A stretch of DNA of 64,000 nucleotides from Melampsora larici-populina 98AG31. Taxonomy: Eukaryota > Basidiomycota > Pucciniomycetes > Pucciniales > Melampsoraceae. A program made the translations under genes and the position numbers. The first letter of the stretch is position 1. Every line of letters begins with the position of its first letter. The notes under the pieces are model-generated. The model worked only from the letters and a program-made list of their open reading frames with translations. It was not told the DNA's origin and made no database searches. Of the stretch, positions 20,210 to 47,600 are shown piece after piece. The stretch spans positions 557,967 through 621,966 of the forward strand of contig NW_006768800.1 in assembly GCF_000204055.1 (NCBI RefSeq), read 5' to 3'.

Positions 20210-20639
20210 ATGGTATATACAGAAAACCTTGAACAGATAAATTGAAGCTGGCTGGGCTCAAAGCCTTAAAAAAACCATGTCCTAAAACCAAACAACACCC
20301 TATGGGATGGCTAACAGTACAAGACTGTCAGCCGTGAGTACTAAACCAGAGTACCACTGGGCAACATATTATAATAAAAACCTTAGAAATAGCAATTACA
20401 ACCCAAGGCTCAGTTTCAAGAGTCAAGTCCAAGTCTATTACTACTTGCAGATATTGATCTACACAACTTTGGTAGAAGTTATTGGACTTTCTACAAACTT
20501 TTTATTGACTCAACTAGCCTAACAGACACTAATAGGCTAACAAAGACTATATTATGTATCATTACATTTAACCACAAAGGCACTTCAAATACAAAACTCT
20601 GGCAAAAATACACAAGCGAAGTTCCGCATGGCAAAAATA
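20210..20639. other. Gap between two transposons, with a 29-bp tandem repeat
   Basis: No gene. At 20601-20639 a 29-bp unit beginning GGCAAAAATACACAAGC is repeated. The second unit is cut at its internal TA by the element starting at 20640, and the rest of that unit resumes at 24902. Confidence 0.7.
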
Positions 20640-20819
20640 CAGTCAAGCTAGATTAGCTTGGCCAATTTTGAATTTCAAAATTGTTTTTTACAGTGATACA
20701 GCTCAAATACAGCTGTTTTTATAAGCATATCTCTCAAACGAGATATGAATTTTGCTGTTGACCGGTTCTCACGCATACCACCTCGAAACCCTTGAAACCA
20801 CCTTGAAACCTTCACCAGC

Positions 20820-23005
20820 ATGCCGAGAGGACCCTCAAAACGTCAAGTCCAACTCGAGGAGCAGGCGCGTGCGTTAGAAGAGGCGTAAGTTTCCATTTCG
20901 ATATCCTCCTTTACTCCATTTCGATATCCTCCTTTACTCCATTTCGATATCCTCCTTCCTTTCGATATCCTCCTTCCTCTTTGATTTCGATTCATATTCA
21001 ATCTGACAATTCTTTTGATTTAAAATCATCCGATTGTCCCACTTTTCCGGATTCAACTCATTCAATCAACCCACTTTCCAATTCGAATCCTATTTTCATC
21101 ATTAGCGCAATCAAACGAGCAAGACAGGCCCCAAAGGAAGGCCTTAGTCCTCCTCGTGGCCGCGGTGGCAGCCCTTGTTATATGCACAAGTAAGTTCTTC
21201 TATTTCTTTCGACTTGTATCATCAATTGACTGCTGATTACCTATGGAAATTCTGTTTTAGACCCGGTCACCACTGGGAAGACGTTCGATACGGTGGTAAA
21301 CGCCAATATCTCGATACCGAGTTAACTCACATTGATATGTGTCAACCTCCTGGTCTTCGCGAGTTCCGTTGTACACTCCATCCCAACATTGATATCATGG
21401 CCAGCGAGGCACAGGTCACTTCAACTTTAAGTCATAGGGATCCATTGTTTGGAAATCAAAGCGTTGAACACCGAGGTGAACATGCGATTGCAGGTTAGTG
21501 TTTTTTATCTTACTCTTGAATGCTGAAGACAGACTGACCATGTTTCCACTAGATCCACATATTGATGTGGATCTAACCCAATCACCGAGTCCAACCCCGG
21601 GCGCCATCAACCCTTCTGGACCGATAGTCACTCCTCAGGACCACAAACCTATTCGAACCAGCATATATTGCCATGTTTATATTCCTATTCACCTTTCCGA
21701 TGCTGAGAGACGCTCTGGAGCGCCTACCACCTACGCGGACTACGTAACCAAACAACCTTTTGAAAAATTACTTCAAATTCATGGCTTTACGCTCAATGAT
21801 ATGAAGGAATCACTTTATAAGGCTTGAAACGAACACAAGGCACCTTCTGGAGACCTACTTCGGGTGGCTGACGAGGAGGGTAATCTATCTCTCAAGGGTT
21901 ATGTTTGTAGTGGCGAGGCCTTCAGTAAGACAGCAGTGCCGGCAATTCCGGACGATGAAACCTTCAATAAGCTCAAGAAGATGATCCTCCTCAAGCCGGG
22001 GAAGGAGGTTGGATTTCGACTTGTCATGGGGGACCCAAAAAGAAAGGCACGAACCGATTCCCGAGTAAGTTCAAACTAACATCCTTGTCTTTTCGTATTC
22101 ACAAGTTGATACTAATACATTGGTTTATTTCAAACAGGACATGTTATTCAATCAAGCGGTCGCACACCGCCGTCCAGACGCATTGGATACTGGTCAACAC
22201 AATGACGTCGAGATGTCGGTATGTTCATGTTCCACCTTTTCTCTTTTCCTTCTCATTTGCTTACAGTCGTGGTATTCTGGAGCAGGCCATTGGAGTCACA
22301 GCTGCGATTCAGGCCGAACACACCCAGCTCATGCGTACGTATGGTCATACCAACATTGGTGGCAAGGAGTGTATGGGTTATGTCAAACCGGACGATTCTA
22401 CTTCCGTGATATACTTATCACATTCAATGTTTGACATTTGGGCTGGTGATATCGTAAGTTTGTTCATTGAGTTCCATCTGAGTTGGCAAGTTTTAATCAA
22501 CTGTCTTTCAATTGATTTGACACAGGTCCATAAGCGACATGGAGCTACGCAACTGAACCCACCTCGTCGCATCATGTTCAAATACGTTGGAATTGATCAT
22601 GCCACATCAAAGTCCGGCAACAAATTGGCGCCTTCTCGTTCTGACTTGGTTGCGTCTCAAAGTTCCTCCTTGGTCTCACTTGGGAACGGTCTGTTCTCAT
22701 TGAACAGCGATGTCAACAACAACGGTCGCCAACCAACTGCCCCCCGATCAGATTCCCCGGCCCCAAGACCTCTGTCTGACTTTGAACAATACCTTGAGTA
22801 TTGTTCAATCGGCATAGACGATCACAAAACTCGAGGTTTACTCAAGTTCTATGATATAGTGAACTTCGAGATGTTCCTTTCATCAGCCCTTGACATCTCA
22901 ACAATGGAGAAGTTTGGCTTTGACTTTGGCCCTCGTCTTCGTCTCCATGAAAGTGCTGTGATGTATCGACAGCACCTCAAGAATTTAGCCTTTGGACGTA
23001 TCTAG
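20820..23005 (+). pseudogene. Accessory protein of element A (SAM-like C-terminus), one nonsense codon
   Basis: Unknown function; I do not recognise the full-length family. Exons by eye: 20820-20884, 21106-21189, 21261-21493, 21553-22064, 22138-22214, 22267-22453, 22526-23005, total 1638 nt (545 codons plus stop). The end of exon 5 uses a weak donor (GTCGGT) chosen to keep frame. Exon 2 encodes a basic RG-rich stretch. The middle is mixed alpha/beta-looking. The last part is a serine/proline linker followed by about 60 residues (LLKFYDIVNFEMFLSS...MEKFGFDFGPRLRLHE...YRQHL) resembling a SAM-type helical bundle. A TGA at 21825-21827 interrupts the frame where CGA is expected. The protein aligns weakly but co-linearly with the gene at 26761-28466. 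Association with the transposase suggests a helper, regulator or target-choice role, which is inference. Confidence 0.7.
20893..20976 (+). repeat. 23-bp tandem repeat in intron 1 of the element A accessory gene
   Basis: The unit CCATTTCGATATCCTCC plus TTTACT is repeated with a 23-bp period at 20893, 20916 and 20939, followed by a shortened unit. It lies directly behind the GTAAGT donor of intron 1. It may reflect slippage or an intronic control element. Confidence 0.75.
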
Positions 23006-23580
23006 CCTTATTCAATCAAAAAAGTAATGACCTTGACCTTCGTCCTGTAAACATGTCTTCAATATGTTGTAGCTATAGTAAAGTATACTATGATCAGACC
23101 TCTCCTCTATTATTATCGTTGGTTGTTTGGCTTTATTCTGTAATGCAAAGATTGTTTAGTGAATAAATTGACGCCCCAAAAGTGATTGCAGTTTCAAGTG
23201 AGATTTTCTTGAACTTGACTCAAAGTAAGAAAAAGGAATTTTATTGAGTTTTTGTGTTTTGAAATGTTTATTGAAACTCAAGAAACCTCAACATTTGAAA
23301 TCTTTAAGCTCCATAAACATCTTACTCAAGGTGTTTCTTGAAACTTGAGATGTTTCTAATCTCATTACTCACAGTATTCCAACTCAATCTCTCAATCTCT
23401 CAAAGTTTTGGGTCAAAGGCACTTTAGGAATTGCAGTAGGACACCATTTCATTGACCACTTTCCAAATGACACTACAAAGACAATTTCAACAACGATTTC
23501 TTTTAACCAGACTATTCTGTAAGACAACTGAGAGCTCAATCCCCAATGTTTTGATAAAACTCCTTTGAAACTCATCATCC

Positions 23581-24705
23581 TTAGTCACGTGGTCTATAAC
23601 CACAAGTCTTGTATAAGCAGGTGATAAAATGACTAGTGCAGACATCACTAAAAACTGTCTTCAAACACTTCAACCTATCTGGAGCCTGTGCAAGCAAACC
23701 GTTGCGACAAAGAGTGGCCTTGAAGACGTCGAATGTTCGCTCAATAGGATTAAATTCTGGAGAATAAGGTGACAGATATATTAATAACACCCCTGCGTCC
23801 TCGCACAATCGTTCAATTGTTCCACGGTGATGGATGGGTGCATTATCCATCACCAGAACTGAATTGCGATCTGGGTATGGTTGCATAACAGGCAACTTCA
23901 ATAAATACAGTCATTGTCAGCTCGGTTTTTGGATCTGAAGCAAGAGAAAAGGATACTCACTAAAAGATGCTTTAAAAACGCTTCGAATTTGTTTTGATGA
24001 TAAGTGTTGACCTTGGCGTTGCAAGCCAAGAGACCCATCTCGCAGATGGCAGCTAGGACGCTGTAGTGAACCCCGTGCCTCGATCGTTTTAAAGCTGTCG
24101 GTCTTTGACCTTTTTTAGACCGGACATGATTGCGTTGGACATCCAGTAATCTTAAGCCAGTCTCGTCTTAGACAAAGTTAGGAAGACAAAATCCACATCA
24201 GTACAAAGTCTTCCCGAAGAAAGAAGAGGATGAAGTACTAACCTAAGAACACCAAATACTTGGGTGGAATATGTGCAACAGAAGCAGAATATCTTGCTTG
24301 TAAGGCAGGCGACTGATTTGGATCGACTTTGATAACTTTATGAACAGTAAGGAAGAGGCGTTCTTTTAGGTCGTTTGCGATAGTTTGTCGACAAGCCAGT
24401 ACATCCGTGTGATCGTACATGGCTTCTTGGATTTCGTCAAGAAACAGGGTAGGATCGTTGTCGATGAGTTCAAGCATGAACTCTCGACCTTCGTCAGTGT
24501 AAAGTGTTGGTCGACCTCGTTGTTTGTACGTAGCCGGATCGCGAACAACCGCGTGAGTATGAGTGTATAAGGTGTTCCATCGCACAAATGACTTGTCGGA
24601 GATCGTTGTAAGAAGTTCTTCGTTAATCGATTGAGGAGATTGTCCGGATAAGAGTTTGTGCACAGCAATAACTTTCAGCTGTGCACTATACTTCACAAAT
24701 CCCAT
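23581..24705 (-). CDS. IS630/Tc1-like DDE transposase of element A
   Basis: Catalyses cut-and-paste transposition into TA. Exons 24705-24243, 24166-23961 and 23895-23581 are joined by GT-AG introns in phases 1 and 0, giving 984 nt (327 aa) without stops. The N-terminus MGFVKYSAQLKVIAVHKLLS starts a helix-turn-helix region, and GRPTLYTDEGREFMLELI continues the second DNA-binding helix set. Catalytic residues: FLDETGLR (D1), VLVMDNAPIHH (D2) and SPYSPEFNPIERTF (E). Exons 1 and 2 have exactly the lengths found in the transposase of element B. It is convergent with the accessory gene, with a gap of about 575 bp. The gene looks intact, although the accessory gene next to it has a stop. Confidence 0.88.
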
Positions 24706-24901
24706 GACCGGGTAAATTTGATGAAGTTAAACAATGAAAATGATATCGGATGATGGAATCGGATGATGGATGATGGAAGTGGTCTGACGCGGCAGGCTGT
24801 TTAGCCTGACCCGTTTGAAGGCTATGCTTGTATTCTCACCTGTATTTAAAAAAAAAAAAAAAAAAAAAAACGAAATTGGCCAAGCAAATCTTGAATGACT
24901 G

Positions 24902-26313
24902 TACACAAGCAAAGTTCCGCAATCAACCTGTAACCCATCCGCACACATCTTATGTTGCCGTGATTCACTAACGCGCAAATTGTCCTCTCATAGCGAGTTT
25001 ACCCATTGGCGATGTCAATCAACTACTACCACAATCACGCTTTTGTTTGCAAGACTCATGATCTCCTTCACACAGGTAGTAGGCAACATGATATCCCATC
25101 AACGACTGAATAATGTTTTTCAAGGCAACACCCACCACAGCCCATCATCAACTGTCTATTGTTTCCTTCTTGGATATCAAATCTCCGAACATGTATAATC
25201 AACAATCAATCCACTGGACTTACAATTTATTCATAACACCACACATAAGTCTCCTACCCAGGCAGCCACACCTAATCATGATGACTTTCACCGTAACCGA
25301 TGCCACTTATAACCAAACATCATTCAACGTCTGTAGGAATCATATCATACAAGTTGAGAGCAAACTGGTTTGCCCAAAACCTGATTAAACTCCTTCCTTC
25401 TCACGCAAAAGTGGCTTATTGACCAAAACAAATCAATCCGTAAGGGATCACACATTAATCCAATCCAACCACTTCATCATTATCAGCATCAACTACAGAC
25501 CATCAATCAATCATAGAACTGTGATTATCATTTCAAACAAAACCATCAACTTCGTTCAATTAGAATAACTCTTCTCGATCTTTTCAAGTGTTTTAGATAT
25601 AGAATTTGATTCAAATCAATATACAAAGGATTTATCACAATTTATAAGTTTACCTGATTCTGGATTTATGGGATTTTTATGAATACTCAAAGATGATCTA
25701 TCGGAGAAAAATTTGAGAAAAAAGAAGCATGATAATTTAGATGAACCATTTGATGAGGATTTGGATTTAGCAGAAGACAATGATGGTGATGATGAAACTT
25801 CTCAGTGAGCGATTTCCCAACAAATCATTTTTTAATCAACTTTTTGGTTTGTTTAATTCTGTTTAATTTACATATTTTCTTGGCTTGTTTTCAATTTTAC
25901 TGGGACATGTACGGCTCCAAGAATCTCAGTAGCTTCATCAAATTGTCAATCAATACCCAGTGATAAATACATCGAAACAACCAAAATCACAACTATATGA
26001 TCCAGAAGAAAGATTAAACCAGAATACATTTCATCTACATCAGTTCAAGAAGGAGTTACCCGTATGCTTAAATAACTGTTTAGATGGTGTGGCGAAGATC
26101 TTCTTGCAATTATGGAAGGACAATCAACTAGATTTATAACCAAAACGATCGTCTTTTTTTACAGCCTTCAATTCCTTCAGGTCTTTGTTTGTTTATATCT
26201 TTTTTCATTCGTTATCTATTCCCAATATCCATATCAAAACAAAAACTGATTTTTTCTTTTTCTTTTCTTCTGAAAAGATGCTTCAATCCTTGCTTCTAAA
26301 TCTCAAATATGTA
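24902..26313. other. Region with small coding-like remnants between elements A and B
   Basis: No complete gene. Two short plus-strand stretches look coding by composition. One, at about 25707-25808, encodes an acidic tail (DEPFDEDLDLAEDNDGDDE). The other, at about 25993-26137, encodes QLYDPEERLNQNTFHLHQFK and ends at TAA. They may be exons of a host gene disrupted by the nearby insertions. I could not connect them by splicing. Confidence 0.3.
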
Positions 26314-26760
26314 CAGTCAATTCCATAAAGAATGAAATGTTCATTTTTCGAAAAAACATGATGGTCCGTGCCCCGTGTAGCCAGACGGGCCACGAACCAT
26401 CAGGATCAGCATTAATACTCAGATCCTGTCCAGATCCTGTCCAGATTCCCCCTTCTCAAATCTCAACAACGGTCACGATTCTCAATTTTCAACAACTTTC
26501 ACGAAGGTTGATTTCTTCGCATCGTACGACATTTCTCATCTCTGATGAGAAGTCACTCGATGGCCCGATGGGCAAGACCTCAACCATCAATCTCCGGCCG
26601 CGCTCACTCTGCTCACTCTTCTGGAACACCCCTTTCCACAGTTTCTTCATTCGACTCAGCTTATTTCGATCACTCTCCATTCTCTCCCGATTCGTTCTTA
26701 TTCATCCACCTCTTTCTCAGCGTCGATAATTCATCGTTCATCTTCAATAACGTATTAGAC

Positions 26761-28466
26761 ATGTCTAATCTTTCTGACATCAGTCCCCAGTACGTCTTCA
26801 ATTTCAGATTCAAAAGGCATCCAACTTACTGATTCTGATCTTTGCAGGTCCGATTCGGAATTTACCAAATTGGCCAAGCAATATTTGGCTGATGAGGGCT
26901 ATGAACCTTCCAGTGCCACACCGGTGGACTTCGATTTCCGACACTCTTCTCCGGTCAAAGAACGAACCCCCGTCAGAGGACCGACTCCATTCATTGAACC
27001 GGGTAAGTCACACCAACCATAATCATCTTTGCCCTGCCCTACTGGACTGACCTCGATTTGTCTGTCCCAGTGGCTAAAGCCGAGGTTAGAATGCAGAAGT
27101 TGTTTGATTTTTTGATAAGTTTTGGTCTGTACACTCCGGAAGCAAGCAAGGGCCCCGTCAAGGCGAATCACAAGGCCCGATGGATTGCGCACAAGTTTCC
27201 CGTTACGAAGCAACAAATAGACGTTACCAACTATTCAATTGCGAAACTCAAATCGCACTTGTTCACAATCGCTGACAAGATCACGAACAACCCATCTGGC
27301 CGCATGTCCGCCCTCTTCCAAACTGCCGACGCCAACGAGCAGCTCTCGCTTGGGCTTTACATCTCCCAGCATCCGACCTATGGCAAGGGGAAAGAGTTCC
27401 AGCCCAAGGAAGAAAATGACTTGGAAGCTTTTTTTGCCGCGGTCGAGAAAAATGCGACAACCGAAAAAGGGATCACCTTGACGATGGAGAATCCCTCAAA
27501 AGCGGTTCAAAAAGAAATTGGGGTAAGTGTCGTCTACTCACTCGTTCCTTCTTCATGATTTTTGACATCATGATTTTCTCATTTGGTAAATAGAAACGAT
27601 CGTTGGCTCATGTCGTTTTGGCAGCGCGCAACGTTGTTCATGAAGGCCGCCCAACTTCGCAAGACGAGCTCGATCATTCGGACCCGGTTCCGAAACAAAA
27701 ACAAATCTTGACGGATTTGATCGCTCATCATAAGGCGCTTGGCAACACCTGCAAAGAAGGGTATCGCCTAGTCCATAAGCTTCAACCGACTAGGATCATG
27801 ATACTGTCCTTTGAGCACATGGTCAAGTGGGCCCAAGCTTTGGTAAGTCAAGTTGGCCCTTTGTCTTGATTCTATTTGGTTTTTTGACTCATCATGTGAT
27901 TATTCTACTTTCTCAAGGCCCGCGGAACCGATGGAGTGACCAAGGACAACCCACCAAAGGAAGCTGGCTTCAAGTGGGAGTCAATCAAACGTGATCTTGT
28001 GACCACCACCCCGATCATGTCAGCCAAGCGTTCCAAGACGACCTCCAAAGACGTACCCGGAGGGAAATCTACTGATTCTCCCTGGGGATACGCTGAGATG
28101 CAAGATATGGACTTTGAGGTTGATCGCCATGAGGCTAAAAGACTTGCGCACTTTTCGACCATTCAAGATTTCGTATCTTTCGCTGACGTTCCTGAAAATG
28201 AGGAAGACCTGGTCATCGAGGCGTTTGAAGATCACGGAATCAAAAACTTCTATCCTTTCCTATTTCCGGGCTCATACGACGCGCGCGACATGGAGCGTTG
28301 GGGTATCCCATTCGGCACTGGATGGAACTTGATGGAGTGTGCTCGCAGGTTTTATCATCATCTAGTTGAAGTGGAGGAATCAAAGCTTCGGATGAAGGGT
28401 ATTGTAATTCCAGATTCCGATGAGGACTTAGAAATCAAAGTGATGCCTTCTAAAAGACGCGCATAA
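26761..28466 (+). CDS. Accessory protein of element B (SAM-like C-terminus), intact
   Basis: Function unknown. Exons 26761-26789, 26848-27002, 27071-27522, 27594-27842, 27918-28466 are joined by GT-AG introns and total 1434 nt (477 aa) without a stop. The N-terminus is acidic/serine-rich. A central helical part (LIAHHKALGNTCKEGYRLV, TRIMILSFEHMVKWAQ) is followed by a basic, lysine-rich linker (AKRSKTTSK). About 65 residues then look like a SAM-type bundle: EAFEDHGIKNFYPFLF, DMERWGIPFGTGWNLME and ARRFYHHL. The end is basic (PSKRRA), a possible nuclear signal. Alignable parts with the element A protein include NPSG...SALFQTAD against APSG...LLRVAD, and the whole C-terminal domain. It shares an element with the minus-strand transposase and converges on it. 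The start is the first ATG in frame before a good donor. Confidence 0.78.
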
Positions 28467-29418
28467 ACGTGTCATTCTCTTTCCCACTCAAAAAAGAAAA
28501 CAATATGTAGATTCCATTATCTTATATCTTTTTTGTTTTATAAAAATTATATTGTCTCTCCTTATTCTCTTTCCACTCAAAAAAGAACCGAGTATGTCGC
28601 TATTCAAATGATTTTGTTTAAGTGTTCCACCTTTTTTGTTTAATAAAAACCATACTGGCTCTCATTTAACAGCTACCATCATCTCTTTCAATTTGGTATT
28701 TTGTGTTCCGAGTTAGTTTTGTTTTGTGTTCCGAGTTAGTTTTGTGCGCACTTCTGATAGTAGTTTGTTGACTGACGGAATGAAGTCATATGTGGTCATC
28801 TGAAATAAACTGATGGGATATCCAACATACGTTGTCTTTGCGAGCGAGCCCCATCTCTGCCCCACAAAGACGACATCGGGAAAGTGAGAGTTTGACATTT
28901 ACCTCTTCAGCATTATGTGAAGTTTTCGATGTGATCATGTCACGTCTCAGCATCACAACTCAAGTCACTCAATTTTGACTTGAGTCGTGACTTATCACTT
29001 TCCTAAGGACTTCGTCTACGAACTTGTAGACGCGCATTTAGTTCAAATGGTCAACTCATTGGGCGGTGACCAGCTCTCGATGGGTTAAGGTTATCATCCT
29101 GGAAATGATACGAGCGTACGTTTCATTGCAAATGAAACGATTAACACAAACACTGGGTTTCATTTATTTTTTCCCTAAGCTCCCAATTTCCATCAAATGA
29201 CAAACAAAAGCTCGAGGTACAAACATAGTATCAATTTAACTCGACTGATTCTAATAAGACCAATCGTCAGGACACAGGAAAGAGACAACGTATCATTTCT
29301 TAAACTGAGAGAGTGGATATTGAAATAGACCCATACAAAGCATTTGATACCGTAGCCAAGACAGTTAATAACAGTATTGAAACAAGATATAAAAAACCCA
29401 TTGGCATAGAGAAATAAA

Positions 29419-30550
29419 CTAATCGGCAAATCGCGCGTTGTATCTGACCCAATAGTGACGAGTGGTGTACCCAGCATGGGCGATTAGGGCTTGCATCAGT
29501 TGCCGGGTCATGACTCTAGCGGCCAATAGGAGTAGGTAATCGGCCTTGTCCTCCTCAAACAACCATCTCTCTTCCCTTTTTAATCGACACTTGGTACAAT
29601 GAAACACATTTTCGATCGGATTCATGTCCGGCGAATACGCCGGGAGATAGATGACAAGTATGCCGGCCTGGTTGCAAAGCTCCAAAATTTGGCCACCGTG
29701 ATGGACTCGTGCATTGTCCATCACGAGGACTGAGTTCGGACCTGGGTATCGGTTCATAACGGGAAGCTGGAAATAAAAGTCAGCATCTGATTAACACTCG
29801 GTTTCTGAAGATGACTTACCAAGTCGTTCTTCAGAAACAGCTCTACATCGATCCTACGGACGGGTCCCTCGATTACAGTCCCAGCGATCATGCCTTCCTC
29901 GCTGACGGCAGGCAGTAAGGTCCAATGACTACGTTCGGTGTGGCGGGCCTGGCGGATAGTACGAGTGCCTCGCTTAGCCCAACTGTGGGTTCGAGATGCA
30001 TCACGACCCACGACTCCGCTCTCATCTGCAATACCCAAAGGGTTAGTGAGAGCGAGCACATTGAGGAATTGAGAGTGGGGCACGTACCAATAAATACCCA
30101 ATATTCGGGTGGTATTCCAGCCACCCAAAACATAAAATCAGTTCGCTCTTCGGGGGATTGATTAGGATGGACGCCTCGTGTGACTAAGAGCGATAGGCCG
30201 AGACGGTTATGAAGTTCACGACAGAGGGTTGCACGAGATATCGTCAACCCGGTTAAAGTCGCCACTTCAGTTTGCAACTCGTCGAGGTAGACCGCGGGGC
30301 GATCATTCACAAGGTCGTGGAGTCGGGCAAGGTTCTCGTCAGACAAAAGGAAAGGTCGACCACAAGGCTCGTAGGTTGCTGGGTCTTTGACGACGCTGTT
30401 GGTGTTACGGAATATGGTTTTCCATCGGTATAGTGAAACAGGGGATATGTTTGTTCGTAATCGAACATTGATATCGGCAAGAGGGACACGCTCCATGGCC
30501 AGCCGAGTAGCCAGGAGCTTGAGGTCCTCTGAATAACGTTGAAAACCCAT
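29419..30550 (-). CDS. IS630/Tc1-like DDE transposase of element B
   Basis: Exons 30550-30088, 30025-29820 and 29766-29419 give 1017 nt (338 aa) with no stop. Lengths 463 and 206 for exons 1 and 2 and both intron phases equal those of the element A enzyme. It starts MGFQRYSEDLKLLATRLAM (helix-turn-helix), with GRPFLLSDENLARLHDLV as the following DNA-binding part. Catalytic motifs: FIDESGVV (D1), VLVMDNARVHHG (D2) and PAYSPDMNPIENVFH (E). The C-terminus is longer than in element A. The gene ends about 950 bp from the convergent accessory gene. With intact reading frame, near-identical termini and a kept TA duplication, it is a plausible recently active source. Confidence 0.9.
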
Positions 30551-30767
30551 CTTCGAGGGTGAAATCGAATAGTTGAAAGGGTGAAAAATAAAAAAACTGG
30601 ATTGGGAATAAAGAGAGGGGAAATGTCCAATCGGAGGCGACTCGGGATGGATAGGATTAACCCCAACCAAGATAAAAAAACGCATAGGTAGGGTTAACCC
30701 CATCCAAGAAAAAAAAACGCAAGACCAAAAAAAAGACTAAAAAAAGCAACTTATAAAGAAGATACTA

Positions 30768-33461
30768 CAGTCGTCTCTCCAAAAATCCATATACCCAATA
30801 AGCCATACTCTCGCATATCCCATGCTTTTTTCCGTCCATATTTTTTATGGGCGGGGGAAATTGACAGAAAATCCATATCTCCATCATTCCCCATAAACCA
30901 TACTTTTTTGAGGCCAACCAGCGATGAAAAACCCATACTTTTGGGTGATGTAGATTCAGACTGGTGAACAAGAGTTTGAAATTCCTTACTGTACAACTTA
31001 CTTTTGTCAGCAATACACCCACAAACACACAAATCAACACACAAACTCCACCGCATAAAGATGATTCCTAAAGACCTAACAAAGTTCACCCTCGCGAATA
31101 TTCAAGAAGGTTTCGATCGGCTGAAATCTGAAAATGATCGACGTATGGGTCCACTACGAGACCTTTTGAGCCAAGGGAAGGCGCTTTCAAAGGCAGACGA
31201 AGATTTTATCGATAACGCTGGAAATATGGTTGATGAGGCTCTTGTCCTTGAGAAAATAAAAAATAGCAACAATGTCTCTGATGCTGCTAAGACCTTCAGC
31301 AAAGATGAGCTGAAGACATTAGAGGTCTTGATTTATAAGTTTGAGCACAAGGTTTTTGTGGACCCATCTGTAGCTAAACCTCGTGAATATCTCTTTGCAA
31401 ACACTTCTAAAGCATCCAATATGTATGGTGAAATCTGATCCCTATGTATTGTTCAACACCCAGGTCCCAAGAAGCGAAATCGAGACGATCCTTGTGTTGA
31501 ATCTTCCAATCAACCAAACTCGAGTTCTTCTAAAAAAACCCGATCAAAGTCTGCTCGTACTAATGCCACTCTGGCTCAGCGTATATTAGTGTTAGACTGG
31601 CACAATAAAAATGGTCGAGTTCAGGTCAAGACAGCAAAACATTTTGAAAATAGTTTTCCTGGTGTTATCATAACACAACCTCTAGTCTCGAGTTGGGTAC
31701 ATAATGAATCGAAGTTACGAGATAGTTACGAGTCTGGTGTAGGACTTGGCATTAAGCGGAGAAATGAGACTGAACATCCTCAAGTAACAGAAGACCTACA
31801 GACTTGGGTTCAACAGGCTGACATTGCCGGACTTCCACTTACCGGAGATGTGATACGAGCCAAGTGGCGTCACTTCGCAACACTTTTCAAAGTGCCTCAA
31901 GCAGAGTGGCTTAAGCTCAGTGAAGGCTGGCTGACCAAGTTTAAATTACGTAACGGTCTTAGACAAAGAGTCAGACACGGCGAGGCGGGCTCAGCTACTC
32001 CGGATAAGGTCGTTGCAGAACGAAAACGAATCCAGGATATCACCAAGTCCTACCATCCTAGAGACATCTATAACATGGATGAAACAGGATTGTTCTATGC
32101 GTGAGAACATTTGTACTGTAACATACTTTTGATCTTTACTAACAAGCCTCGATTTCTCAACACGTACTGTAGAATGCCACCAGACCGAGCCTTGTCTAAA
32201 GACAAACAATCAGGTGTTAAAGGTGATAAGCGACGCTTGACCTTTGCACTCACATGTAATGCAGATGGAACAGACAAGCTCAAACCGTTCATCATTGGAA
32301 AAGCAAAGCGTCCAGCCTGCTTCCACAAAAAGTCCGGCGAAAATCTTGGATACTACTATCGGAGCAATGCAAAGGCATGGATGACATTTGAGCTGTTTTC
32401 AGAGTGGATTATAGACTGGGACATCAAGTTATCGGCAGAAGGTCGTTCTATATTACTCTTAGTTGACAATTTTTCTGGTCATAAGGAGCCTTCCGAGTAC
32501 AAACTTACCAGTATTTGCCTTGAGTTCTTTTCTCCAAACCTTACATCACATGTTCAACCGCTGGATGCTGGCATAATCGCATCATGGAAATGTCGATATA
32601 GATCTGAATACATTACATATGTGATCAATCGCTATGAAAATGAAGTCCCCATTGGAACAATCTTCAAAATCAATCAAATCGACGCTATGGAGCGAGCTGA
32701 AAACTCTTGGAATGAAGTGACTCAAGATACAATTTCAAACTGTTATAGGAAGGCGGGTATCATTTCCCCTCGAAATCCCGATGGATCTTTGCTGCAGGAT
32801 CCAAACTCAGCGGATGCGAGTCTCAACACGGAGCCTTTGATTGATGATGTTGCTCATCAGGATCTTGAGCAAGACCTTCAAGAATTGATCTCCTTACGAG
32901 TTGTTCACAAATCAAACATGATGTCTATTAGCGAGCTCTTAAATCTTCACGGTGAGCATGCAAGCGGCCTTGAAACCTGGACACCCGAGGAAATCTTTGA
33001 ATCAATTCAGGAACGTGACAGTCATGAAGATCTCCCTCAACCCGAGCACATTGAAGTTGAAGTACCTCCACAACCATCATATTCTGACTTACTGAAATCA
33101 AGTGATGTTGTAATGGCATACCTCAGGCATGAAGAATGCAAGGAAGCGAGGGCTTGCGGAAAAACCCTTCGCCGAGCGTTGCGGCAGTTTAGTTCAGCAC
33201 ATTCAAAGAAAATGAACCAATCAAATTTGAAGCACTACTTCTCATCCAATCCTTAAATCTTCCCGCTTTTTGTTCTACTTCACTATTTACTTTGCTTTGA
33301 AATAAAAATTGTTTTTTAAAAAAAAATCTCTCTCCTAACCCATATTTTACCCCCAAAATAAGATTTATGGGTTATCAGAGAGATCCCCATAGGACATACT
33401 CCATCAAAACCCATACTTTTTGGTGTCCATAAAACGGTATGGGTTATTGGAGAGACGACTG
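30768..33461 (+). mobile_element. pogo/Tigger-type transposon, CAGTCG ends, TSD TA, nested in element B
   Basis: Terminal inverted repeats begin CAGTCGTCTCTCCAA on both ends and are flanked by TA (30766-30767, 33462-33463). Subterminal regions on both sides are crowded with CCATA/TATGG words, probably transposase binding sites. One plus-strand gene of three exons fills the middle. Length is 2694 bp. All parts look intact. Confidence 0.9.
31061..33256 (+). CDS. pogo-type DDE_1 transposase
   Basis: Exons 31061-31427, 31464-32100 and 32173-33256 sum to 2088 nt (695 aa). Intron 1 would be only 36 nt, but its removal is needed to avoid TGA and keeps frame. The N-terminal 120 residues are helical and of unknown role. 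Next is a basic nuclear signal (GPKKRNRDD), then a helix-turn-helix (TLAQRILVLDWHNKNGRVQV) and a CENP-B/Tc5-type DNA-binding domain (GDVIRAKWRHFATLFKV). The catalytic core follows: YNMDETGLFYAMPPDRALS (D1), LLVDNFSGHKE (D2) and HVQPLDAGIIASWK (D3), the DDD form usual for pogo. The ATG at 31061 is the first in frame. It inserted into the 5' side of the element B transposase gene region without touching its coding sequence. Confidence 0.88.
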
Positions 33462-33601
33462 TAACGATTTTCTGCAGATCATCGAGTGCGTGAGCGCTTG
33501 TTTGACAGCCTGGCCTGATCAGAAATGGCCGCGGCTGCGTCGCGCACGGACCTTCATGTTTTTTCGAAAAACCAACATTTCATTCTTTATGGAATTGACT
33601 G

Positions 33602-34801
33602 TATTCAATCAATTCCATCATCTAATCCTCAAAGCTGATCGGTTTCTACTAATTCTAATACTTCTCATCTTTGAATCAGATTAGAATGTATGCCTGATAG
33701 GTAATTAACAAGAACTGTAAGTTCATGTCGGACAGTTTCAAATGCATCAATCAGAGTAAGTTTTCATTTCTAAAAGAAAGTTGAATCGATTGACTGATGT
33801 AAATGTTGATGATAGTTGGGTTTTCTTTTTAGACAGCTTTTGTGATTGTACCTTGCGATTTAGATTTCCAGTCTAAATCAAATGAAACCGAATCGACTTT
33901 TCGATGTTCTTCATTTCATTTAATTGACAATTTCACTTGAAGATACGTCTTTAGAAAACGCCGAGAAGTTAGCAATCTTTCCATTGAATATCAATATAAA
34001 AGTTTGATTTGATTTCAGGTCAAGCGAGACGGAAATATGATACCAAGAGTCAAAAAAACTTCAGTGTTTTACTTCAAAATGAATCGGAAACCGTATACTT
34101 TAACATAGGCCACACGTCAGTTACTCAACAAATCTATGCAGCAAACCAATTCATTTTGACTAATCAACTTGAACAATGCTTACAAAACAAAAACAGAACA
34201 ATATCATCTGTTCACTACTGGAATCTCTCTAGGCTGTGAGTTGGGTCTTGATCTTATCTTTCCTCATCAATATCGAATTACAATATACTATACTAGCTAT
34301 CAATGGCTAATCTATCATTATTCTGAATAATCAGATCGGCTACTCACCTTCATTCATTACACTCGCAACCTTCAATCGGAAGATCAAGATGGAGGTTAAG
34401 ATTACACAATTAAGACTGAACTCTCAGTTTCACTTCAAGCTAGGTTTACTCAAAAGGGTTTCAACTGTGACTTAGTCGCAGTATTTGGATCATAATCAAG
34501 TGGAAGGAGTATGGCTTAATTATATACCCTTCCAATCAACCTATCTTGTTTTGAAACTGAAATCTAATCTTTCTTTTTTGACCATAAAGGTACCCTGTTG
34601 AACCGAGCGTTTGGTATTACAATCGAGGACATGGATGAGCATGGATGAGGGTGATTAGTGAAGGTTTGCCATAGACCTATCACATTTGTAACTCCAAGAA
34701 TTTGATGCTTCAGGTTAAGTAGACAGAAGAATAGAAGTAGGTCAATTGATTTCCATGTACTCGGAACCTTTTGATCCTTGATTGCAATCTAATTCCACAT
34801 A
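33602..34801. other. AT-rich flank upstream of the transcription-factor relic
   Basis: No supported gene. If the transcription-factor pseudogene downstream had the usual N-terminal zinc cluster, its exons should lie here. I did not find six correctly spaced cysteines, so that part is lost or too diverged. Confidence 0.35.
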
Positions 34802-44677: not shown

Positions 44678-47600
44678 CATGAATGCCAGCATCACGTGCG
44701 ATACAACGGTGAGAATGATAAATCTTCTCTCTGATGGCCTTCTCAGCTTGAGCTCCAGTGAGACCATCACTAATAATGTAAATCATCTTCATGAGAACTC
44801 CAGAAACAAGAGAACAGGCATGATTGAGCTTACAGATATGCCATGTGATGACGCTGGACCTTCCGAAAGTATCCGTGAATTGTTAATAAGGGGCAGCTGA
44901 TACGAATCTCTTCAAAAAGTGCTCAGCAATCTTTGAACAATTTGCATTCCAAACTTCGCTTGCGATAATCTGATGAGTCACAAAAGTTAGATGAGATGAT
45001 AAGCGACACGATTGAAATAAGATCATAAGCTGAGGAGATTCAAATATGATGATGGGCAAATGACAAGAAAAGCAAACTCACGATGCTTGATAAATGACCA
45101 ATAGAGCTCAATTGGGTTGAGCTTGCAGTGAAACTTAGGAAGGAACAGGCAGATGTGACCTGCCTCCTCAAGAACCATTTGAAGTAATGGCTTTTCATTT
45201 GCGAAGTCCGACTGACAAGCAAGGATTTTTGAGGCACAGCAAGATGAACTGAAAGGCTGTGAGGTGTCAGGTTGTTGAGTGTCAAGTAATTCTTGATCGC
45301 GATTCTCTTTAGCTTCGTTCTGCAAACAAGCCTCGCGCCGGGCTGCATCACGACGAACACCGGACTCTCTACACGTTGCACACTGCATCACCAGTCCCGA
45401 GTTACTTTCGTGTTTAGATTTTTCGTTGTAAAAGTCCCACAAGCCACGTTCTTGGAGGACAATCTTCATGCCTTTTTGCTTACCAGCTTGATTAGGATCA
45501 GGATGAGTCATCGGAAATACCATACTCTGCGGTTTGCCTCGTAATTCAGGTGGGATTTGTGGATCGTCTGTTGGGATTATTGTGTCTCGAAGAAAGCCTT
45601 GTTTACCACCCATGGCCAAGTTCATCTTATTAACACGTAGTGCTGTAGGTCCATAGGCCTCGTGAGCAGATGAACAGTCGAATATGAACACCCCTGTGGC
45701 TCCAGGGTGTAGATATTCAAAGATTGGGATTGTTCGTGTTTTGACTTGATCAATAAGTTGAGCCATGTCCCACCAAGCATCGCCCTTTGAGCCTGGATAG
45801 ATCACCACAGCAGCATCAGAAAAAGGTGGAGGAGGATGAGGCGAATCAATCGAGATCGATGGATCTTTTAAAGATGTATGGAGCCGTCCTGTAGTTGGTA
45901 ATATGAAATCAGAGATGTGAATCAAGCGCCCGTTGCTCTTGCTGCGGAGTTCATTCACACCATCTTGGATCCAAGCTAGCCTGGGCCGTTCATTTGCATG
46001 GATGGTTGATTCATCATGGTATACAGTTCGCCAAAGGTTGGATCTTCAAGGACAAGGGGGTTGGCGACTTGAAGATTGGGATCGGAATATGTTCGGATAT
46101 TTTTCTTGAGTTGTTCATATTTCTCGAGAAAGACTTGTCTGGAAAGAACTACATCAGGTCTTTCATGACCATCATAATACAGTCCTTTACTGTATTCACG
46201 TGCCCGAAATCCCAAGTGAAAAAGCCATTGATACGTGGTGACCAGANNNNNNNNNNNNNNNNNNNNNNNNNNNNNNNNNNNNNNNNNNNNNNNNNNNNNN
46301 NNNNNNNNNNNNNNNNNNNNNNNNNNNNNNNNNNNNNNNNNNNNNNGATGGTCTTCTGATATCCAAATTTTGGGAGAACAATCGAGTTTGCATAGTCCTG
46401 TAGACCAAGAGGTAAGAGCTGGTTTGAATGAAGAAAGATTCAGTGTTTGTATCTCTGATTTAGTGAGAACTACATAGAAAGAGACTTACCTCGCCTGGCT
46501 TCTTAGATGATGCCCATGTGTAAAGCATATCAAAGACCCGTTGATCATCCAACATTGATTTTGGTCTTGATTCTAAACCAGTCCTTGAAAAAAGAAGCTC
46601 GTTATGGGTCATGAGATGAACTGCTTGCTTTTGTAACCTCTTTGCATGGCTTACACCAGTTCGAAAGTCGTGATGCTTGATTGAGGTTCGACGGGCTGAA
46701 GAATGTGCAGTGAAATATGAAGCAGTGACTGCAGGGGACTTTGCTCCTTCCAGAGTCAGTTCTAGACGACGTCTGTCGTACTCGTGAAGTTCGCCAATAA
46801 GGGTGGTGGGGTATTGAAATCCAGGATCTGTAACTTGCTTATACTTTTCAGACACATCAAGTAGAGCCTGATGCATAGCGTGATGTTGATCACGGGCTTT
46901 CTTGCTAATTTGATCCGGAAGTAACTTGTGAACCTTGACCAAGCCTCGATATTGTTCGACACAATGGTCAATCCAGGCGTCATAAGTTGAATCATCCTGG
47001 ATTGCATTGAAGCTGCTGGATAAGATTGGTGGTTGAGAAGTGGTGCTCTTATCAATTGATGAATTTGATTCGTATTCAGTATCTGATTCGGTTGCAGAAT
47101 TGGAATACTGAGTGCTTTCAGGATCCAGTGCGAGAGAGGGAGATTCCCCGCCTTGGCCAAGCCAATTAGCCATAAACATGTTATTTTTACCAATAGCCTT
47201 GTCTCTTGCAAGCTTGTAGTTATGCTTAGTTGACCGTGGAAGTGGACGTGGTTTAAGTTTTTTTGTAATTGGGTCCATCATTGGTCGTTTATAGTGTTTG
47301 AGGTTGTGACCGGAATGGTGTTGACGTTTCCCAAGTGTTGGCTTTGAAGGGCAAGGTTGGAGAAAAACCGGATATAACACACTCTGTATAAGCACTTGAT
47401 CACATGCATCGTCATCGTCAGAGTCTCCAATGCCACCAACAATAAATTGTGTAATATCAGAAGGTTCTAATTCATCGTCTTCATCTTCATAAGTATGATG
47501 TATCTGAACCCAGTGTGTCTCAGCTTGATTTTCAGGTGGAATTAGAGGTAGTGGATTCTCAAAAGGTTCCAAGGGGTCATCTTTGTCTTCTTGAGTAAGG

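Follow-up and report, generated by a model that had tools for sequence, protein, structure and literature searches.

Tc1/mariner elements, a very common class of transposon, serve as the textbook example of one-protein transposition, a property thought to underlie their easy movement from host to host and their use in gene delivery. In the available text of a 2025 paper, accessory proteins are called surprising for Tc1/mariner elements and are described in the TBE elements of ciliates, where they are under purifying selection, are proposed to be accessory factors, and left DNA binding by the transposase unaltered in E. coli (PMC12242761). This text agrees with the premise of an earlier note on the DNA studied here, namely that ordinary Tc1/IS630 elements carry a transposase only, the ciliate TBEs being the surprising exception. 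Here we analyse a window of 64,000 nucleotides (the whole stretch of DNA that was analysed) from Melampsora larici-populina 98AG31 (contig NW_006768800.1, positions 557,967 to 621,966), which contains two neighbouring transposons, E1 and E2 (Table 1). Both are IS630/Tc1-type DD34E transposons with a second conserved gene, hereafter the accessory gene, that is convergent to the transposase gene.

Two complete transposons with convergent genes

E1 is a complete DNA transposon with inverted ends (arms 20638-20689 and 24852-24903, identity 75%) and TA on both sides. Because an intact copy of its target survives in the left flank, the TA duplication is directly readable: this copy and the interrupted one (20630-20639 plus 24904-24921) are equal at 27 of 28 letters. 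E2 is likewise a complete DNA transposon with inverted ends and flanking TA; its terminal inverted repeat (TIR) arms are 71 nt long and 89% identical. It reaches 7.3 kb because a third element, of 2.7 kb, has inserted within it, some 215 bp upstream of where the E2 transposase gene starts. The TIRs of both window elements begin with CAGT, and insertion is at TA. Both also have the same layout, with the accessory gene on the plus strand adjoining the left end and a convergent three-exon transposase gene on the minus strand. Transposase exons 1 and 2 measure 463 and 206 nt in E1 and E2 alike, and exon 2 is 206 nt long in 26 of 29 modelled loci, the window elements both included (the gene models omit L001-L008, which are short stretches around matches retrieved longer, or the window itself). 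The termini, TA duplications, gene orientations and exact exon lengths given in the earlier note were all recovered in this way.

Transposase exon pieces of E1 (E 6.2e-8 and 2.6e-16) and E2 (E 1.4e-16) match PF13358 (DDE_3), and the second D and the E are 34 residues apart in both proteins, which total 327 amino acids in E1 and 338 in E2. The E1 accessory model has 7 exons and 541 codons and looks broken, since an in-frame TGA at 21825-21827 (exon 4) interrupts it, unlike the E1 transposase, whose reading frame is open. The E2 accessory gene has 5 exons and an open frame of 477 amino acids. Of the 545 and 477 codons previously proposed, the E2 length therefore stands, whereas that of E1 becomes 541 with an internal stop.

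Recurrence, co-descent and selection of the gene pair

The searched assembly comprises 98.3 Mb in 243 contigs. The open reading frame that surrounds exon 3 of the E2 accessory gene had 57 matches in it, as had the final exon of the E1 gene (22553-23005), and transposase exon 1 of E1 and of E2 gave at least 150 each. For 44/57 E2-type and 40/57 E1-type accessory matches, the listed transposase that lay nearest within 12 kb was convergent. After merging, there were 146 accessory loci; 106 of them had a convergent transposase no more than 4 kb away, and 114 no more than 12 kb away. Transposases within 4 kb were convergent in 106 cases, divergent in 2 and on the same strand in none, with about 2% per locus expected by chance. 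Furthermore, an accessory-like gene occupies the same place at both loci (2/2) from multi-copy transposase families that lack an E1- or E2-type accessory match, L034 and L035 (scores 105 and 93, the L035 link being weak); their accessory pieces have 19 and 23 genome matches, some already in the earlier lists. Conversely, among 256 merged transposase loci a convergent accessory gene was detected within 12 kb in 115 and none in 141. As these were single-sequence searches counted among the matches listed, the fraction of paired loci is a minimum, and transposase relatives truly carrying one gene may exist.

Could the accessory gene be a host gene that stands beside the transposase by chance, or a passenger captured once? 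At 32 of the 146 accessory loci, no transposase was listed within 12 kb (28 of these 32 are outside the fetched set). Accessory fragments also adjoin a PIF/Harbinger-like transposase of no relation to the family, within a repeat that has been amplified, which shows that such pieces do get captured. However, a chance neighbour is ruled out by the convergent transposase within 4 kb at 106/146 loci, that is, by a two-gene unit that recurs genome-wide, and purifying selection across elements and the accessory-like genes beside the distant transposases L034 and L035 also speak against this explanation. This explanation is already largely contradicted, and we regard it as very improbable.

Comparison of E2-type (5 rows) with E1-type (2 rows) accessory profiles by hhalign gave a probability of 99.2 (E 3.1e-19) over 309 columns and, judged from these profiles, the two types are homologous. 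A resemblance confined to the C-termini is thereby ruled out, and the former estimate of about 60 common C-terminal residues proved too small. Accessory and transposase identity matrices of 25 elements correlated strongly (r 0.946, a value reached by 0 of 9,999 permutations; r 0.928 within the 19 E2-like elements); this set omits L018 and L021, which have no transposase model, and L034 and L035, whose models are partial. The trees of the two proteins, whose comparison the earlier note had proposed, agree in their main clades with small differences within clades. The clearest exception to co-descent is L009, whose accessory gene is nearer E2 (third positions differing 156/474, vs 184/472 to L010) and whose transposase gene is nearer L010 (79/309 differing vs 115/309). 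As its two genes have different nearest relatives, L009 suggests an exchange of halves between elements.

Ratios of nonsynonymous to synonymous substitution (dN/dS) could be listed for the 31 of 300 element pairs that were close enough. In 24 of these the accessory ratio was 0.079-0.294, similar to that of the transposase; 5 very recent pairs gave 0.28-0.95 on few changes, and in 2 the accessory dS was saturated. By region (seven pairs), the middle of the accessory protein and the parts predicted below to be PB1-like and SAM-like were mostly below the N-terminus and tail, with exceptions such as the SAM-like part of L023-L025 (0.36). On these ratios, both genes are under purifying selection. 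Together, the 106/146 convergent loci, co-descent and homology support the proposal that this protein is the element's own; the search for convergent transposases beside accessory matches, suggested beforehand and run in the fungus's own genome, thus mostly had a positive outcome.

Of 29 oriented loci, 21 (the window elements both included) had TIR pairs, never with flanks common to two; the inverted repeats of L035 are 183 nt long. An E2-type end pattern, which covers only part of the family, had 41 + 39 matches in the genome and 0 in a reversed control. Among the 32 facing E2-type TIR pairs, judged by listed matches, both genes are present in 12, neither in 20 and one gene alone in none. Eighteen of the gene-less pairs (for example C1:3503715-3504308) span 569-747 bp and the other two 2.2 kb and 4.2 kb; the short ones look like miniature inverted-repeat transposable elements moved in trans.

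These counts also bear on the idea that the accessory protein is a brake, binding its own transposase and lowering its activity so that host and element are spared. Convergent genes and co-descent would permit such a dosage partner. Yet a brake should be easily lost by selfish copies, and elements with the transposase alone numbered 0/32 among the E2-type TIR pairs, although this argument covers only the part of the family with that end pattern and has to be read beside the 141/256 transposase loci without a detected accessory gene. We consider a brake improbable. Purifying selection and the lack of single-gene elements among the 32 pairs point to an accessory protein that probably helps or regulates transposition.

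As a separate observation, E1-type accessory fragments at L036 and L037 (also match C41:51251-51547) are convergent with an adjoining PIF/Harbinger-like (DDE_Tnp_4) transposase. PB1-like exons were not found in the fragments at these two loci, and the L036 and L037 repeats are 95.9% identical over 3.5 kb. Apparently a piece of one transposon's accessory gene was amplified together with another transposon.

Predicted folds and a possible role of the accessory protein

Among 5.8 billion proteins, the only accessory homologues were P0001, 51% identical to the E2 accessory protein, and P0002-P0008, which are hypothetical proteins of Melampsora americana, the species from which all named protein matches come. 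Aligned with P0002, the two E1 accessory pieces showed 61% and 72% identity. This transposon lineage would explain several repeated hypothetical proteins of M. americana (P0002-P0008) as transposon genes.

A Pfam scan of 10 family members and 7 proteins or pieces recognised no credible domain in the accessory protein, the weak hits to DbpA (E 0.11) and CRF-BP_N (E 0.23) not being credible, and it gave no match to PB1, to a zinc finger or to a kinase; a search for solved structures related by sequence found 0. The predicted structures of one homologue per subfamily share a fold, in line with the structural check that had been proposed. The middle part is predicted to have a PB1 (ubiquitin-like) fold and the C-terminal part, less surely, a SAM-like one. 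The accessory alignment shows no acidic OPCA stretch of the kind known from PB1 domains; where it would lie, after a strand, there is a loop of the form GYV..G..F.K or YI..H..YGKGK with an invariant lysine. A KRxK-type cluster is present in the linker of 15/20 scanned E2-like sequences. In the flexible N- and C-terminal parts, a VDVDLT-like stretch precedes SPSP in 8/33 sequences (W1, L029, P0002-P0005, P0007 and P0008), and a VIPDSDxD-like tail occurs in 11/33, all E2-like; both resemble SUMO-binding motifs.

With its predicted PB1-like and SAM-like self-association modules, the accessory protein may act as an oligomeric scaffold that assists the transposase in moving the element, a reading that in our judgement stands evenly balanced. 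The protein would assemble through these two ends into an oligomer, would enter the nucleus by way of the KRxK-type cluster, and would bring the transposase, the ends of the element or a target on chromatin together in a single complex, which in turn would raise or steer transposition. A more far-reaching version, which we offer tentatively and think unlikely, is a lineage-wide obligate two-part machine in which a PB1-SAM protein forms polymers in the nucleus, as a filament or a condensate, holds the DDE transposase and the element ends, and docks on chosen chromatin, perhaps via the SUMO-binding stretches. If true, this machine would be another multi-protein Tc1/mariner system, the second after that of the ciliates and independent of it, and its PB1-SAM protein would be, to our knowledge, the first polymer-forming partner in the Tc1/IS630 superfamily.

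The strongest rival, ahead of the brake, is a counter-silencing factor that would keep copies expressed by disturbing host chromatin marks, outside the cut-and-paste reaction. The accessory protein is element-borne, conserved and separate from the transposase, and the two SUMO-type stretches are kept in the sequences counted above. A precedent is the VANC protein of VANDAL elements, in the available texts a non-transposase anti-silencing protein that is encoded by a transposable element and serves it (PMC10398659, PMC5735166). Against this, Pfam recognises no DNA-binding domain in the accessory protein and the predicted folds indicate self-association rather than DNA binding. We think counter-silencing unlikely and prefer the scaffold.

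The features of the two elements are collected in Table 1. Elsewhere in the window, a run of 100 N at 46247-46346 is possibly an assembly gap.

Table 1. Positions of E1, E2 and the nested element in the window
Feature	Position	Strand	Basis or remark
Element E1	20640..24901	.	TA at 20638-20639 and 24902-24903; inverted-repeat detection
Uninterrupted E1 target copy, tandem, left flank (built-in empty site)	20601..20628	+	sequence, direct repeat
E1 accessory exon 1	20820..20884	+	gene model
E1 accessory exon 2	21106..21189	+	gene model
E1 accessory exon 3	21261..21493	+	gene model
E1 accessory exon 4	21553..22064	+	aligned to PB1-like part (vs P0002; modelled)
E1 accessory exon 5	22138..22218	+	gene model
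E1 accessory exon 6	22286..22453	+	gene model
E1 accessory exon 7, linker and SAM-like C-terminus	22526..23005	+	gene model
E1 transposase exon 1, 463 nt	24243..24705	-	weak helix-turn-helix (HTH) match
E1 transposase exon 2, 206 nt	23961..24166	-	DDE_3
E1 transposase exon 3	23581..23895	-	DDE_3
Element E2	26314..33601	.	TA both sides; TIR arms 26312-26382 and 33533-33603
E2 accessory exon 1	26761..26789	+	gene model
E2 accessory exon 2	26848..27002	+	gene model
E2 accessory exon 3, PB1-like region	27071..27522	+	gene model; predicted fold of homologue P0001
E2 accessory exon 4	27594..27842	+	gene model
E2 accessory exon 5	27918..28466	+	linker with KRSK cluster, SAM-like region, acidic tail
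E2 transposase exon 1, 463 nt	30088..30550	-	
E2 transposase exon 2, 206 nt	29820..30025	-	
E2 transposase exon 3	29419..29766	-	DDE_3
Third element, nested in E2	30768..33461	+	HTH_Tnp_Tc5 + DDE_1 transposase, own TIRs, TA

Comparison with described systems

In their DDE_3 transposase, DD34E spacing, CAGT starts and TA insertion, E1 and E2 resemble the Tc1-like DD34E elements of the Tc1/mariner - IS630 group. Ordinary members of that group have only the transposase, whereas E1 and E2 carry a second spliced, convergent gene that is conserved across subfamilies. PIF/Harbinger elements are DNA transposons that carry two genes, one of them for a Myb-like partner protein; their transposase is DDE_Tnp_4 whereas E1 and E2 match DDE_3, and their target duplication and partner also differ. 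Like VANC, the accessory protein is an element-encoded protein other than the transposase, but VANDALs are plant elements of another superfamily. The predicted fold is akin to PB1 domains (PKCiota, Cdc24, NBR1, p62) and, less surely in the C-terminal part, to SAM domains; unlike these families, the accessory protein has no Pfam match and has a loop with an invariant lysine where the OPCA stretch would lie.

The literature entries listed, a set with most subscription journals and Repbase outside its scope, contained no described fungal Tc1/mariner family with such an accessory gene, and the available text of one of them mentions rust Tc1-Mariner elements and not a second gene (PMC12210899). For a large, diverged lineage with a probably self-associating partner, the question becomes whether the second protein provides speed, a choice of target or a way to evade silencing. 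A close parallel is with the ciliate TBEs which, according to the available text, are also Tc1/mariner elements with extra genes under purifying selection (PMC12242761). Their hosts differ, however, and so do the partners: of the TBE accessory proteins, one, of 57 kDa, is a zinc-finger/kinase protein and the other, of 22 kDa, has no predicted domains, whereas the fungal accessory protein matches no Pfam family and is predicted to combine a PB1-like with a SAM-like part.

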